NCBI GenBank assembly: GCA_030596125.1
Contig: JAUVKT010000011.1
Coordinates: forward strand, 1-47,104
DNA: 47,104 nucleotides
Source: Bacteroidales bacterium
GTDB lineage: Bacteria > Bacteroidota > Bacteroidia > Bacteroidales > VadinHA17
Direction of reading: 5' to 3'
A program made the position numbers and the translations under genes. The notes beneath the pieces are model-generated. The model saw nothing but the letters and a program-made list of their open reading frames with translations, was not told where the DNA came from and ran no database searches. Of this stretch, positions 5,213-32,965 are shown in pieces. Each line of letters starts with the position of its first letter. Within the stretch, counting starts at the first letter, position 1.

Positions 5213-7366
5213 ATGTCAGAAAAAAGTAAGAACGAAACTGAAAAGGCTGTAGAGGCTACAGAGGCTGTAAAAGAAGAGGCTGTAGAGGCAGTAAAAGAAG
5301 AGGCTGTAGAGGCTGTAAAAGAAGAGGCTGTAGAGGCAGTAAAAGAAGAGGCTGTAGAGGCAGTAAAAGAAGAGGCTGTAGAGGTTGAGCAAAGCGAAAT
5401 CCCGCCAAGCGGGACTGTAAAAGAAGAGGCTGTAGAGGTTGAGCAAAGCGAAATCCCGCCAAGCGGGACTGTAAAAGAGAAGGCTGTAAAGGCTGTAAAA
5501 GAAGAGGTAGTTGAGACTGTAAAGGCAGTAAAGAAAGCGAAAAAAGTAAAGGTTGATGTTGATGACAAACCTGAAAAAACATCGGTTGAAGATTTTGACT
5601 GGGATGTTTTTGAGAGTAAAGGCTCTCATGAATCTCCTAAGTTTAAGGAGTATGAGACTATGTACAATGAAACATTGTCAACAATTGCAGTTGATGAGGT
5701 TGTAGATGGTAACGTAATCTCAATGACCAAGCGTGAAGTTGTAATTAATATCGGGTACAAGTCAGAAGGTGTTGTGAGCCTGAATGAATTCAGGTATAAT
5801 CCGGATCTCAAGCCGGGTGATACAGTTGAAGTTTATGTAGAGAGCCAGGAGGATAAAAAAGGACAGCTTATTTTGTCTCACAAGAGAGCTCGTGCACTTA
5901 AATCCTGGGAAAGGGTTAATACGGCTCTCGAAAATGATGAAATTATCAATGGTTACATCAAGTGTCGCACCAAAGGTGGTATGATCGTAGATGTTTTTGG
6001 TATAGAGGCCTTCCTTCCAGGATCACAGATTGATGTCAAGCCAATACGCGACTATGATATTTATGTCAATAAAACAATGGAATTCAAGGTTGTTAAGATA
6101 AATCATGAATTCAAAAATGTTGTTGTGTCTCATAAAGCACTTATTGAGGCTGAACTTGAGACTCAAAAGAAAGAGATTATAGCTAAACTTGAAAAGGGAC
6201 AGGTTCTTGAGGGAACAGTTAAGAATATTACATCCTATGGAGTATTTATTGACCTTGGTGGAGTAGATGGCCTTATCCATATTACAGATCTTTCATGGGG
6301 CAGGGTTAACCATCCTGAAGAGATCGTTCAACTTGATCAGAAGTTGAATGTTGTAATTCTTGACTTCGATGATGATAAGAAGAGAATTGCTCTTGGTCTG
6401 AAGCAACTTACATCTCATCCATGGGATTCCCTTGACGAGAAACTGAAAGTTGGTGATAATATTAAAGGTAAAGTTGTTGTGATGGCTGATTATGGCGCGT
6501 TTGTTGAGATTGCATCCGGAGTTGAAGGTCTGATTCACGTATCTGAAATGTCATGGTCGCAACATCTCAGAAGCGCTCAGGAATTTATGACTGTGGGTGA
6601 TGAGGTTAATGCTGTTATTCTTACACTTGATCGTGAACAGAGAAAAATGTCACTCGGAATTAAACAGCTTAAGACCGATCCGTGGGAAAAAATTGATGAA
6701 AAATATTCAGTGGGTTCGAAGCACACAGCAAAGGTGCGTAATTTTACCAATTTTGGAGTATTTGTAGAAATTGAAGAGGGGATTGACGGATTGATCCATA
6801 TATCTGATCTTTCATGGACCAAAAAAATTAAGCATCCGGCTGAATTTACATCTATCGATTCTGAGATTGAGGTAGCTGTACTTGAGATTGATAAGGAAAA
6901 CAGGAGGTTGAGCCTGGGACATAAGCAACTTGAAGAGAACCCATGGGATGTATTTGAAGATCTGTTTACTGTCGATTCTATCCATGAAGGCACAATCGTA
7001 AACGTGTTTGATAAAGGAGCAGTAGTTGCACTTCAGTATGGTGTTGAAGGATTTGTTACTCCAAAACATCTTGTTAAAGAAGATGGATCTTCCGGCAAAA
7101 TAGAGGAAAAGTTGCAATTCAAGGTTATTGAATTCAATAAGGCTGCCAAAAAGATAATTTTGTCTCATAGCAGAATATTTGAGGATGAAAAGCGCGGAAA
7201 AAAACATGAAACACCCAAAAGTGCTCATAAGGATACAAAGCATACTGCCAGGAAAATCAAATCAAATCTTGAAAAAACAACTCTTGGTGATATAACTGAT
7301 TTAGCGGCTCTTAAAGAAGAAATGGAAGAAAAAGAGAATAAATCTTCCAAATCTAAGAAAAAATAG
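5213..7366 (+). CDS. rpsA: 30S ribosomal protein S1 with expanded repetitive N-terminal extension
   Basis: Six S1-type repeats recognisable (e.g. VLEGTVKNITSYGVFIDLGGVDGLIHITDLSW, HTAKVRNFTNFGVFVEIEEGIDGLIHISDLSW). N-terminus is EAVKEEAVEAVKEE tandem repeats; Lys-rich C-terminus. Confidence 0.95.
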   Translation: MSEKSKNETEKAVEATEAVKEEAVEAVKEEAVEAVKEEAVEAVKEEAVEAVKEEAVEVEQSEIPPSGTVKEEAVEVEQSEIPPSGTVKEKAVKAVKEEVVETVKAVKKAKKVKVDVDDKPEKTSVEDFDWDVFESKGSHESPKFKEYETMYNETLSTIAVDEVVDGNVISMTKREVVINIGYKSEGVVSLNEFRYNPDLKPGDTVEVYVESQEDKKGQLILSHKRARALKSWERVNTALENDEIINGYIKCRTKGGMIVDVFGIEAFLPGSQIDVKPIRDYDIYVNKTMEFKVVKINHEFKNVVVSHKALIEAELETQKKEIIAKLEKGQVLEGTVKNITSYGVFIDLGGVDGLIHITDLSWGRVNHPEEIVQLDQKLNVVILDFDDDKKRIALGLKQLTSHPWDSLDEKLKVGDNIKGKVVVMADYGAFVEIASGVEGLIHVSEMSWSQHLRSAQEFMTVGDEVNAVILTLDREQRKMSLGIKQLKTDPWEKIDEKYSVGSKHTAKVRNFTNFGVFVEIEEGIDGLIHISDLSWTKKIKHPAEFTSIDSEIEVAVLEIDKENRRLSLGHKQLEENPWDVFEDLFTVDSIHEGTIVNVFDKGAVVALQYGVEGFVTPKHLVKEDGSSGKIEEKLQFKVIEFNKAAKKIILSHSRIFEDEKRGKKHETPKSAHKDTKHTARKIKSNLEKTTLGDITDLAALKEEMEEKENKSSKSKKK
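5244..5530 (+). repeat. Tandem coding repeat in rpsA 5' end (about 24-nt unit gaggctgtagaggcagtaaaagaa, then a 54-nt unit in duplicate)
   Basis: Read directly. The 24-nt unit encoding EAVEAVKE recurs; two consecutive 54-nt units carry gaggttgagcaaagcgaaatcccgccaagcggga (5381-5414 and 5435-5468). Confidence 0.93.
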
Positions 7367-10262: not shown

Positions 10263-10366
10263 AGAGGCGAAAGGCGTAAGGCTAAGGCTAAGGAGGGAAG
10301 ACTGCTAACTGAAGACTGAGAGATGTTGGGAGAAAGAAACAAAATGATAAATAATAAATTTCTCTG

Positions 10367-18090: not shown

Positions 18091-18259
18091 AAGTTAAAAG
18101 TGAACTAAAGTTAAAAAAGGTTGAATTGTTTAATCGTGTAATCGTTTAATTGTTGGGGAGTACGCTGATTAAATCGTCCTAAACAGTTTAACAGTTTAAC
18201 AATTTAACATTTCAACAGTTAAACAATTTCAGTGACTAAAGTTAAAAGTGACTAAAGTT
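18091..18259. repeat. Intergenic low-complexity repeat locus with octamer periodicity and an imperfect long inverted repeat
   Basis: aagttaaaagtgaactaaagtt at one end, gtgactaaagttaaaagtgactaaagtt (18232-18259) at the other; arms 18123-18154 and 18198-18229 match as reverse complements at 24/32 positions. Confidence 0.85.
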
Positions 18260-26589: not shown

Positions 26590-26745
26590 CTGAAGTTAAA
26601 AGTGACTAAAGTTAAAAAACTGAGGCTAAGGCTGAGGCTGAGGACTGAAGACTGAGGACTGAAGACTGAGGACTGAAGACTGAAGACTGAGGACTGAAGA
26701 CTGAAGACTGAAGACTGAAGACTGAAGACTGAAGACTGCCGACTA
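26586..26745. repeat. Intergenic simple-repeat locus with a heptamer tandem array (RGACTGA)n
   Basis: 26642-26738 is 13 full copies plus a partial copy of (A/G)GACTGA, preceded by gtgactgaagttaaaagtgactaaagttaaaa and a (gctgag)-like stretch, and followed by CCGAC. Confidence 0.97.
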
Positions 26746-26764
26746 ATTTAGATAAATCATATAG

Positions 26765-29279: not shown

Positions 29280-29315
29280 GAGGGTACTTCAATCAGGTAC
29301 CCTCTCTTTTTATTT
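29280..29315. terminator. Intrinsic terminator hairpin between convergent genes, spanning the uvrA stop codon
   Basis: GAGGGTAC-TTCAATCAG-GTACCCTC (29280-29304), 8-bp perfect stem, then TCTTTTTATTTT. The uvrA stop (29293-29295) lies in the loop. Confidence 0.85.
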
Positions 29316-32109
29316 TGTGTCTGAGATATTTCCCGGTATATGATTGCTTACATCCGATCAATTCTTCAGGTGTTCCTGCAAAGATTACTTTACCTCCCTT
29401 TTCACCACCTTCCGGGCCAAGGTCTATTATCCAGTCGGCGTTCTTTATCATCTCTACATTGTGTTCTATTAGAATTACTGAGTGACCATTTTCTACGAGT
29501 GCATTCAGTGAATTCAGGAGCTTGTTAATGTCATGAAAATGAAGTCCGGTAGTGGGTTCATCAAAAATAAAAAGTATATGTTCACCAGCTTTTTCATGAC
29601 TAAGATAATATGCCAGCTTAACCCGTTGACTCTCACCACCTGATAATGTTGAAGAGGATTGCCCCAGTCTTATGTAACCCAGTCCGACATCTGCAAGAGG
29701 TTTAAGCTTTCTGATGATTTTCTGTTCTTGCTTATCATTAATCACCAAGAAAAATTCAATGGCTTCGTTAATAGTCATCTCAAGAATCTGATAGATGTTC
29801 TTATCTCTGTATCTGACATCAAGAATATCTTTTTTGAACCTTTTTCCCTTACAACTGTCACAGATTAACTTCACATCTGCCATAAACTGCATCTCTACCT
29901 TAATAATACCTTCTCCCATGCACTCATCACACCTTCCTCCATCCACATTGAAGGAGAAATGAGATGCTTTGTATCCGTTTTGAACTGATATCTGCTGATC
30001 GGCAAATAGTTTTCTAATCTCATCAAAAGCTTTCAGATAGGTTACCGGGTTTGAACGACTCGATTTGCCAATTGGATTCTGGTCGACAATCTCAATTGCT
30101 GTTATTGAAGCTGTGTCGCCCTTTAGCACAGAAAATTTACCTGGCTTTACAGAAAAAAGATCAAGCTGATTTTTGAGTGCCGGATAAAGTATTCCGGTGA
30201 CGAGTGATGATTTGCCAGATCCGCTAACGCCCGTAATTGATGTAATAATATTGAGAGGAAACCTGACATCAATATTTTTGAGGTTGTTTTCCCTGGCTCC
30301 TGTTATTTCTATATAGCTGTTCCATTTTCGCCTGACTGAAGGAACAGGTATTGAAAGAACTCCATTCAGATATTTTCCGGTGATTGAAGTCTCAGAATCC
30401 ACTTCGGATGGAGACCCTTTGTAAATAATCTCACCTCCCAGTCGCCCTGCTTCAGGCCCGATATCTATTAAAACGTCGGCATTTCTTATAATCTCCTCTT
30501 CATGTTCTACAACAAGTACGCTGTTTCCCAGATCACGAAGCTGAAGCAGGACACCCATAAGCATATTTATGTCACGTGGATGGAGACCTATGCTTGGCTC
30601 ATCTAATATATATAGAGAGCCAACCAGACTGCTGCCAAGGGATGTAGCAAGATTAATACGTTGTGACTCTCCACCTGAAAGGCTTGAAGAGAGGCGATCA
30701 AGGGTCAGATATGATAGGCCAACATCAAACAAGAATTGTAATCTTGACCTGATTTCCAGGAGGATCCTCTCTGCAATTTCCATATCCTTCCTGCCCAATT
30801 TTATGTTTTTTATTAATTTAAGTAATTCGGAGATTGGAATTTGTGTAAGTTCCTGAATTGATTTCTTACAGATTTTTACATAACCTGCTTCCTTTCTCAG
30901 CCTGGCACCCCTGCATTCAGGACAGGTAGTTTTACCTCTGTACCTGCTAAGCATTACCCTGTATTGTATTTTGTATTTCTTTTTTTCCAGGTATTCAAAG
31001 AACCGGTTAAGTCCGTAAAAATATCTATTACCGTTCCAGACGAGCGCCCGTTGTTCTGCAGTAAGTTTGTCCCATGGTTTGTGAATGGGGAAATCGAACT
31101 TTGAAGCATTCATTATCAGGCGTTCTTTCCATTTCTTTAATTTCTCACCTTTCCAGCAAACTATCGCATTATCAAAAACCGAAAGATTCTGATTAGGTAT
31201 TACCAGCTCTTCATCTATACCGATAATCTTACTATAGCCTTCACAAACCGGACATGCCCCGAGTGGATTATTAAAACTGAAAAGATGTTCGGTAGCCTCT
31301 TCGAACTCAATACCATCGGCCTCAAAGTTGTTGGAGAAATGTTCAGGTTTAACCTTTTTTTCTTTTAAGATCTCAATTATGCAATGACCTTTTCCCGTTT
31401 TAAAAGCTGTTTCTACTGAATCGGCTATCCTGCTGAGATTATCTTCTGAATTATCGATAATAATACGATCGATGACTATATAGAATGCAGATATTGCAGC
31501 ATGCTCTCCGTTTGGCAAATCCTGGTCAATTCTTAAAACTTTCCCATCCTTTGTTCGGATCCTGTTAAAGCCCTGCTTGACGAGAAACCTGAAATATTCG
31601 CTGGATTCTATCTTATCTGTTACTGTTGCAGGAGTAAGGATAAGAGCCTTTAATCCGGCATTAAATGAGGCAATATAGCTTACAACATCGTCAACATTGT
31701 GTCTTTTTACCTCTTTTCCTGAAACCGGTGAATAGGTACGGCCTATCCTGGAGTATAGAAGTCGAAGATAATCGTATATCTCTGTGGAGGTACCAACAGT
31801 AGATCTCGGATTTCTGGTATTTACCCGCTGTTCAATGGCAATGGCAGGAGGAATACCACTTATAAAATCAACATCGGGCTTTTCCATTCTGCCCAGAAAC
31901 TGACGAGCATATGAAGATAAACTCTCAACATAACGTCTCTGGCCTTCAGCATAAACAGTATCAAATGCGAGTGATGACTTACCTGATCCTGAAACACCGG
32001 TTATTACAACAAGCCTGTTTTGAGGGATATCGATATCGATCGACTTGAGATTGTGTACTCTTGCTCCTCTGATGCTAATTTCTTGCTGTTTGCCGGTCAT
32101 ATAATTCAC
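29293..32109 (-). CDS. uvrA: excinuclease ABC subunit A
   Basis: VVITGVSGSGKSSLAFDTVYAEGQRRYVESLSSYARQFLGRMEKPDVD, two LSGGESQR signatures, zinc-finger cysteines CPECRGARL and CDECMGEG...CDSCKGKRF. Confidence 0.97.
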   Translation of the reverse strand: MNYMTGKQQEISIRGARVHNLKSIDIDIPQNRLVVITGVSGSGKSSLAFDTVYAEGQRRYVESLSSYARQFLGRMEKPDVDFISGIPPAIAIEQRVNTRNPRSTVGTSTEIYDYLRLLYSRIGRTYSPVSGKEVKRHNVDDVVSYIASFNAGLKALILTPATVTDKIESSEYFRFLVKQGFNRIRTKDGKVLRIDQDLPNGEHAAISAFYIVIDRIIIDNSEDNLSRIADSVETAFKTGKGHCIIEILKEKKVKPEHFSNNFEADGIEFEEATEHLFSFNNPLGACPVCEGYSKIIGIDEELVIPNQNLSVFDNAIVCWKGEKLKKWKERLIMNASKFDFPIHKPWDKLTAEQRALVWNGNRYFYGLNRFFEYLEKKKYKIQYRVMLSRYRGKTTCPECRGARLRKEAGYVKICKKSIQELTQIPISELLKLIKNIKLGRKDMEIAERILLEIRSRLQFLFDVGLSYLTLDRLSSSLSGGESQRINLATSLGSSLVGSLYILDEPSIGLHPRDINMLMGVLLQLRDLGNSVLVVEHEEEIIRNADVLIDIGPEAGRLGGEIIYKGSPSEVDSETSITGKYLNGVLSIPVPSVRRKWNSYIEITGARENNLKNIDVRFPLNIITSITGVSGSGKSSLVTGILYPALKNQLDLFSVKPGKFSVLKGDTASITAIEIVDQNPIGKSSRSNPVTYLKAFDEIRKLFADQQISVQNGYKASHFSFNVDGGRCDECMGEGIIKVEMQFMADVKLICDSCKGKRFKKDILDVRYRDKNIYQILEMTINEAIEFFLVINDKQEQKIIRKLKPLADVGLGYIRLGQSSSTLSGGESQRVKLAYYLSHEKAGEHILFIFDEPTTGLHFHDINKLLNSLNALVENGHSVILIEHNVEMIKNADWIIDLGPEGGEKGGKVIFAGTPEELIGCKQSYTGKYLRHKIKREGT

Positions 32110-32130: not shown

Positions 32131-32230
32131 CAGTTGGCCCTCCTTCGCTCTCCACTTCGTTTCAAGCTTCGGAAGGGCAAAGCAGTTGGCAATCTTCACT
32201 CTTCCAATCTTCCAATCTTCCAATTATTCC
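32131..32230. repeat. Intergenic repeat locus: 44-bp GC-rich insert between 8-bp direct repeats, then an octamer array (cttccaat)n
   Basis: CAGTTGGC at 32131-32138 and 32183-32190 flanks cctccttcgctctccacttcgtttcaagcttcggaagggcaaag; then aatcttcactcttccaatcttccaatcttccaatta. Confidence 0.9.
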
Positions 32231-32377
32231 GGTTAAGTATTAAAGATTCCAAAAGTAATATTTTTAATTTTAATTTTTTTTTAGTTAATTGCGCTTGAAG
32301 AATTTAAATGTCATTAACTATCTAAAGGAGGACCGCCTATAAATCAATTCTACTCTTAAACCAAAAGCGGAGTTAGA

Positions 32378-32965
32378 ATGAATAATAAAATAGCTGATCA
32401 TGAGTTGGTTAAACAATTCATAGATGGAAGGCAGTCTGGTATCGAAGAATTAATCAATAGACATAAAGAGAAGGTTTTTACCTATATTTCCATGTATTTC
32501 AGGGATAAAAATCTTGCTGAAGATATTTTTCAGGAAACTTTCCTGAAGGTGATAAATTCACTAAGATCCGGCAAATACAAGGATAATGGTAAATTTCTAT
32601 CCTGGGTAATGAGGATTGCACATAATCTTATAATCGATCATTTCCGTAAGGTAAAACAGACCAATCTGCTGTCAAATGATGACTATGAAACAGATATTTT
32701 TAATTGCAAAAAATTGGCTGAAGCAAATATTGAAGACTCAATGGTAATGGATCAGATAGCGAATGATGTAAGGAGCCTTCTTGAACAACTTCCGGAGGAT
32801 CAGAAGGAGGTTGTAATGATGAGACATTATGCAGGCCTTAGTTTTAAAGAGATTGCCGATCAAACTGATGTTAGTATTAATACAGCCCTTGGCAGAATGC
32901 GTTATGCTCTTATTAATATGAGAAAGATGATAGAGGAGAAGAATATCTGCCTAACGATTAATTGA
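32378..32965 (+). CDS. RNA polymerase sigma-70 family factor (ECF-like)
   Basis: DKNLAEDIFQETFLKVINSL (region 2), WVMRIAHNLIIDHFRK, LPEDQKEVVMMRHYAGLSFKEIADQTDVSINTALGRMRYAL (region 4). Confidence 0.93.
   Translation: MNNKIADHELVKQFIDGRQSGIEELINRHKEKVFTYISMYFRDKNLAEDIFQETFLKVINSLRSGKYKDNGKFLSWVMRIAHNLIIDHFRKVKQTNLLSNDDYETDIFNCKKLAEANIEDSMVMDQIANDVRSLLEQLPEDQKEVVMMRHYAGLSFKEIADQTDVSINTALGRMRYALINMRKMIEEKNICLTIN

Follow-up and report, generated by a model that had tools for sequence, protein, structure and literature searches.

Between the divergently transcribed uvrA gene (minus strand, positions 29293 to 32109; TIGR00630 UvrA, 1102 bits, above the cut-off) and a gene encoding an ECF-type sigma-70 factor (plus strand, 32378 to 32965; TIGR02937, above the cut-off), the 8-bp sequence CAGTTGGC occurs twice, at 32131 to 32138 and at 32183 to 32190, which raises the question of what kind of DNA these two copies bracket and whether the repeat was made by its insertion. 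The original prediction, derived from the 47,104 nucleotides analysed here (the window), was that of a tiny non-autonomous palindromic element accompanied by a target-site duplication. Coordinates and letters of the repeat and of the bracketed 44-mer are exact, and the 44-mer is clearly richer in GC (0.55) than the 100 bp to its left (0.37) and the segment from 32191 to 32377 (0.28). The direct repeat alone, however, is weak evidence since exact 8-mer pairs at a distance of 52 occur three times in the window, in which the 44-mer itself is single-copy. The proposed imperfect stem is present, although this single copy folds no better than shuffled sequences: the z-scores for DNA are +0.88 (plus strand) and +0.36 (minus strand), neither of them significant, and those for RNA +0.62 (plus strand) and a mild -1.93 (minus strand, which is the uvrA-sense strand).

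The element stands above chance because about 39 copies of it, 89 to 100% identical, are found in the 2.70 Mb host genome (165 contigs), where a split pattern yields 33 exact matches compared with 0 for the reversed-pattern control. As judged by inspection of open reading frames nearly all of these copies are intergenic, and in the host genome none was seen in frame within a protein-coding gene. The claim of a small, non-coding, hairpin-forming element has thus gained considerably from the search of the genome. As the assembly consists of short contigs, it may contain misjoins at repeats. We assign a probability of roughly 0.75 to the reading that the insert represents a non-autonomous palindromic element, dispersed in many copies, which is 45 nt long here and 30 nt in its minimal form, resides in a heptanucleotide array and would have been spread by an enzyme acting in trans; the identity and the anatomy of the element, as described in the following, leave little room for doubt.

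On the plus strand the element, CCCTCCTTCGCTCTCCACTTCGTTTCAAGCTTCGGAAGGGCAAAG, extends from 32138 to 32182 and comprises the 44-mer together with the preceding C. Its 5' half (32138 to 32149), which the search pattern defines as common to the cross-phylum family described below, consists of a CCCTCC stem, a TTC internal loop and a GCT stem. It is followed by a long loop, CTCCACTTCGTTTCA (32150 to 32164), which is typical of the present genome and elsewhere gives way to AA or to loops peculiar to the respective genome. The 3' half (32165 to 32182) contains the AGC stem, the opposing TTC internal loop and the stem GGAAGGG with a bulged A, and ends in an asymmetric CAAAG tail. Within the host genome the core forms two subfamilies, TTTCAAGC and TTTCGAGC, which differ at TTTC[A/G]AGC. 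Scanning 394 other Bacteroidota genomes with the split pattern gave no exact match, so that the family appears patchy and rare in the genera drawn.

The surroundings of the copies answer the question about the 8-bp repeat. At the window locus exactly one heptad, AGTTGGC (32132 to 32138), lies to the left and shares its final C with the element; to the right, the C at 32183 and a further AGTTGGC (32184 to 32190) together make up the second CAGTTGGC. The array then continues from 32191 to 32224 with AATCTTC and the 8-bp units ACTCTTCC, AATCTTCC and AATCTTCC (Tandem Repeats Finder, period 8, 32190 to 32224). The same arrangement recurs throughout the genome: almost every copy is bordered immediately to the left by a heptad of the form A[AG]T[CT]NNC and to the right by a C plus heptads, in one orientation and one register, the heptads seen being AGTCGGC, AGTTGGC, AGTCCAC, AGTCTTC and AATCTTC. 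Exactly one left heptad is present in 22 of the 39 copies, while the right side holds 0 to 12, and heptad arrays devoid of the element are common. Hence, the 8-bp direct repeat is the heptad unit of the array plus a C, i.e. the repeat unit of the target rather than a duplication made by insertion, and this part of the original prediction is not supported; membership of the 8-bp repeat in the array unit had been named in advance as an outcome that would refute it. Other tandem arrays in the same style, built of heptads or octads, are present in the window at 26619 to 26746, 10271 to 10333 and 18182 to 18229.

That a miniature element generates a 7- or 8-bp duplication upon each insertion nevertheless deserves consideration, as left and right heptads are identical more often than random pairing would give (18 of 35 copies versus 10.4; neighbouring units of arrays are identical in 27 of 92 cases), and the excess persists among copies outside the MITE described below (13 of 21 versus 9.2 expected, p = 0.014). 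A weak signal of local duplication, possibly of 7 bp at some sites, thus remains. Moreover, a few matches of 6 to 7 bp between the flanks occur elsewhere, e.g. AAAATTC in L203, and one type of empty site fits the same notion (see below). A duplicated target, however, should vary with the site of insertion, and this pattern is contradicted by the flanking 7-mer belonging to a single sequence class at almost all, otherwise unrelated, loci of the host genome. In two other carriers, Chryseolinea serpens and an Uhrbacteria genome, the contexts of the element are likewise fixed and the flanks share at most GC. We consider this explanation improbable.

Empty sites, as anticipated, do exist in the form of paralogous copies of a MITE. 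The host genome harbours a MITE of 141 to 385 bp with the ends GTAACTAATCAGT...TAGTTAC and 8-bp target-site duplications, in some copies of which the hairpin is placed after the first or after the second heptad (L034, L028, L027, L011 and L032), while in others (L066, L071, L072 and L073) it is absent. At these sites the element has been gained or lost. In L066 the heptads read AGTCGGC-AGTCCAC-AGTCCAC-AATCGGC and in L034 AGTCGGC-AATCCAC-[45]-AGTCCAC-AATCGGC; the length difference between the two is exactly 45 nt at zero net gain of heptads, and this pair, as well as L073 and L027, is explained without any duplication. In contrast, L072 possesses one heptad fewer than the filled sites, as a 7-bp duplication would give. 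Since heptad number itself varies, by one in either direction at the paralogous sites, the MITE leaves the duplication undecided. Perfect target-site duplications flank all five empty MITEs that were checked and only one of six filled ones, for which reason the filled MITEs look older, albeit in a small sample. The element is carried inside a MITE of the type with terminal inverted repeats and target-site duplications, while it has itself neither terminal inverted repeats beyond its hairpin nor a demonstrable duplication. Several MITE copies (L066, L071, L072, L073, L078, L059 and others) contain the decayed 5' end of a gene which reads like a four-helix-bundle protein (PF05635), a fuller relative of which is located at G000:C35:7566-7883. 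This gene was rejected as a partner of the element because heptads lie near one and the hairpin near none of its eight full or partial matches.

The orthologous locus was inspected in relatives of the same family, none of them of the same genus. These retain the sigma gene and the T-rich block upstream of it, and in the same region both heptads and hairpin are absent. Their other neighbour matches UvrA of the host genome by only 33 to 44%; the left side may therefore not be orthologous, and the locus does not represent a clean empty site.

Beyond the host genome, a scan of GTDB representative genomes with the pattern CCTCCTTCGCT-N(0-30)-AGCTTCGG-N(1-3)-GGGCAA revealed at least 103 matching stretches, where we estimate, from 25 fixed bases and the freedom of the gaps at equal base frequencies, a chance expectation well below one; with the reversed control, 0 matches were obtained across 50 carrier genomes. 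Among the matches listed, Patescibacteria and Bacteroidota (Chryseolinea, Niastella, Chryseosolibacter and Bacteroidales) predominate, and Verrucomicrobiota, Lentisphaerae, Omnitrophota, Phycisphaerae, Hydrogenedentes and Alphaproteobacteria are also represented. Without its long loop the element reads C-CCTCC-TTC-GCT-loop-AGC-TTC-GG(N)GGGCAA(G), with a minimal 30-nt form C-CCTCCTTCGCTAAAGCTTCGG(A/C)GGGCAA-G, and among 80 cross-phylum copies CCTCC is preceded by a C in 74. In 24 distinct loops of at least 6 nt, 40 end pairs are formed versus 12.6 expected, a number reached by none of 2000 shuffles. As the loops differ between genomes and their ends yet stay self-complementary, it is the hairpin rather than the loop sequence which is kept. 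Chryseolinea serpens DSM 24574, a cultured strain with two Y1_Tnp loci, contains 27 pattern matches, compared with the 33 found in the host genome with a slightly stricter pattern, and its 30-nt form repeatedly lies between AACCGC and GCAAAG, short repeats of that genome's own; in the Uhrbacteria genome the element is situated between CCCCCTC and GCC..CTCCCCC. We found no description of this element family in the open-access literature searched for its DNA and peptide strings.

In several Patescibacteria the element lies in frame within genes for alanine racemase, TsaD, GAPDH, ValRS, UppS, a P-type ATPase and others, where it is read as a PSFAKASEGK-like peptide. A core length of 1 mod 3 is observed in 19 of 23 copies located well inside open reading frames and in 33 of 57 elsewhere (p = 0.03). 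Annotators should be aware that PSFAKASEGK-like peptides in proteins of Patescibacteria represent insertions. At four patescibacterial loci (L182, L186, L207 and L218) the first codons of a gene are found on both sides of the element in a diverged form encoding a similar peptide, for example MEIRN before and MEIRNIAI after it.

How would such an element move? Its hairpin with the symmetric TTC/TTC internal loop, the one-sided tail and the lack of both terminal inverted repeats and a stable duplication fit single-strand processing by an enzyme of the Y1/HUH type. The element might thus spread as a single-stranded hairpin. A trans-acting enzyme, most likely an HUH/Y1-type transposase residing outside the element, would copy or paste it into short tandem repeats, which in the host genome are the AGTYNNC heptads with their heptad|heptad junctions as the sites of entry; the flanking heptads could subsequently permit precise duplication or loss through slippage or unequal exchange. 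The involvement of a trans-acting Y1-type step is proposed tentatively. A search for a REP-associated transposase had been suggested, and six Y1_Tnp genes or fragments are indeed present, so that a link is conceivable, but none of the six is flanked by the element and the RAYT loci carry other palindromes. One fragment with termini of its own is found about 520 bp away from a copy carried by a MITE. A Y1_Tnp gene is present in 40 of the 50 carrier genomes and no match to it was obtained in the remaining ten, two of which possess five and three copies of the element. The neighbours of the cross-phylum copies are unrelated genes, and the Pfam families found repeatedly next to 80 copies include no transposase family and, specifically, not Y1_Tnp. 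We infer the enzymatic step rather than observe it, because of these ten carriers, the differing termini of the host's Y1_Tnp genes and the lack of a recurring transposase family; for the latter two reasons a RAYT acting in cis was rejected. A GIY-YIG nuclease was likewise dismissed since the four copies in the host genome are not located beside the element. At two loci (L058 and L054, on G000:C107 and C163) a Y1 transposase gene family is bounded by inverted GCGCCA(C/T)AGGTGCGTAATCA together with a CCCCGAGCGCAGCTCGGGG palindrome; one copy of this gene family is truncated and situated close to a MITE that carries the hairpin.

The main rival to enzymatic spread is an exchange among heptad arrays by recombination or template switching, in which a heptad-hairpin-heptad block would be copied through slippage or gene conversion without any transposase. 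Three copies arranged in tandem at C125:2408-2576 with a period of 52, i.e. 45 + 7, which agree with enzymatic spread as well, a chimeric form, CAGTCGGCCCTCCTTCGCCTTAGCC, at C76 and the frequency of a single left heptad all speak for such events. So does the resemblance between the flanks of cross-phylum copies, which are often imperfect direct repeats (L151 and L195 being good examples) and exceed control positions at the same loci by 12 to 1.6 (score of at least 22, 40-bp flanks). Array recombination, however, hardly accounts for copies at heptad-free sites in other genomes and within unrelated housekeeping genes, both of which require movement to non-homologous sites. We therefore regard it as possible but the less probable account.

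Since no more than about 30 bp separate the window copy from the uvrA reading frame, and its RNA fold in uvrA sense is mildly favourable, the hairpin could instead be a conserved structured RNA or regulatory element, e.g. of the uvrA 5'-UTR, kept in many copies for functional reasons. This is very unlikely: the Rfam search returned no family (best match 19 bits versus a cut-off of 100), the cross-phylum copies adjoin unrelated genes, and the orthologous sigma gene of the relatives is preceded by neither heptads nor hairpin. A bolder version of spread by transposition would regard the 30-nt hairpin core as a cross-phylum mobile element of an unrecognised enzyme, which on insertion would duplicate the bases next to it, and the heptad arrays that are so frequent in intergenic DNA of Bacteroidota as accumulated footprints of its insertion and loss; we give it little credence.

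In kind, the element is REP-, RPE- or SDR-like. REP elements and REPINs are GTAG- and CGTC-tagged palindromic repeats mobilised by RAYTs, which are mostly intergenic, lie at times in frame inside genes including those of tRNA synthetases, and in the CGTC class have no dedicated transposase (PMC3733652). The present element shares with them an imperfect palindrome of 20 to 45 nt, genome-specific variants, tens of copies and a mostly intergenic, sometimes in-frame location, and with the CGTC class the lack of a dedicated transposase. In contrast, its ends in the copies inspected are C-CCTCC and GGGCAA(A)G without a GTAG (GYAG/GTRG) or CGTC tag, no cognate RAYT flanked by the repeat was found among the host's Y1_Tnp genes or in the neighbourhoods of 80 copies, one core occurs in very distant phyla, and the element sits in heptad arrays. 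As tag and RAYT linkage were both tested and neither was found, we do not classify it as a REP. Rickettsia palindromic elements, as summarised in PMC10969869, are about 150 nt long and lie in frame in unrelated housekeeping genes. The cross-phylum copies resemble them by description in the latter respect, whereas the present element measures 30 to 45 nt, has other hosts and is intergenic in the host genome. By its description, the cyanobacterial small dispersed repeat SDR5 in HIP1 (Elhai et al. 2008, cited in PMC4390886 and PMC3116915) is likewise a mobile element of very small size that occupies an exact position within a short iterated motif, as is seen here for the host's heptads and the short repeats of Chryseolinea serpens, its target and host being different ones (HIP1 instead of a heptad tandem array). 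Heptanucleotide TAACTGA repeats are found in intergenic regions of Beggiatoaceae, Cyanobacteria and Bacteroidetes (PMC4679880, in excerpt); they have heptad direct repeats in Bacteroidota intergenic regions in common with the arrays described here, but consist of another unit, and the excerpt reports no nested palindrome.

Palindromic repeats of very small size are usually reported for one genome at a time, while here one core, CCTCC-TTC-GCT..AGC-TTC-GG-N-GGGCAA, recurs across phyla, keeping its hairpin and changing its loop, and nests, depending on the host, in tandem repeats or in essential genes. If the element moves, it may point to a mobilising enzyme that has so far escaped recognition, or to horizontal exchange in which Patescibacteria and neighbouring organisms take part. 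It would also allow the origin of heptad arrays in intergenic DNA to be tested.

Two further repeats were observed. A second palindrome, CCCTGTAGAAATA...TATTTCACAGGGCAAGC, occurs in the same heptad register at L037, L016 and L019 and once adjoins the 45-nt element with one heptad in between. Within the window, a perfect 54-bp tandem repeat containing the palindrome CCCGCCAAGCGGG lies at 5363 to 5470 inside the open reading frame from 5213 to 7366, adjoined by 24-bp coding repeats.
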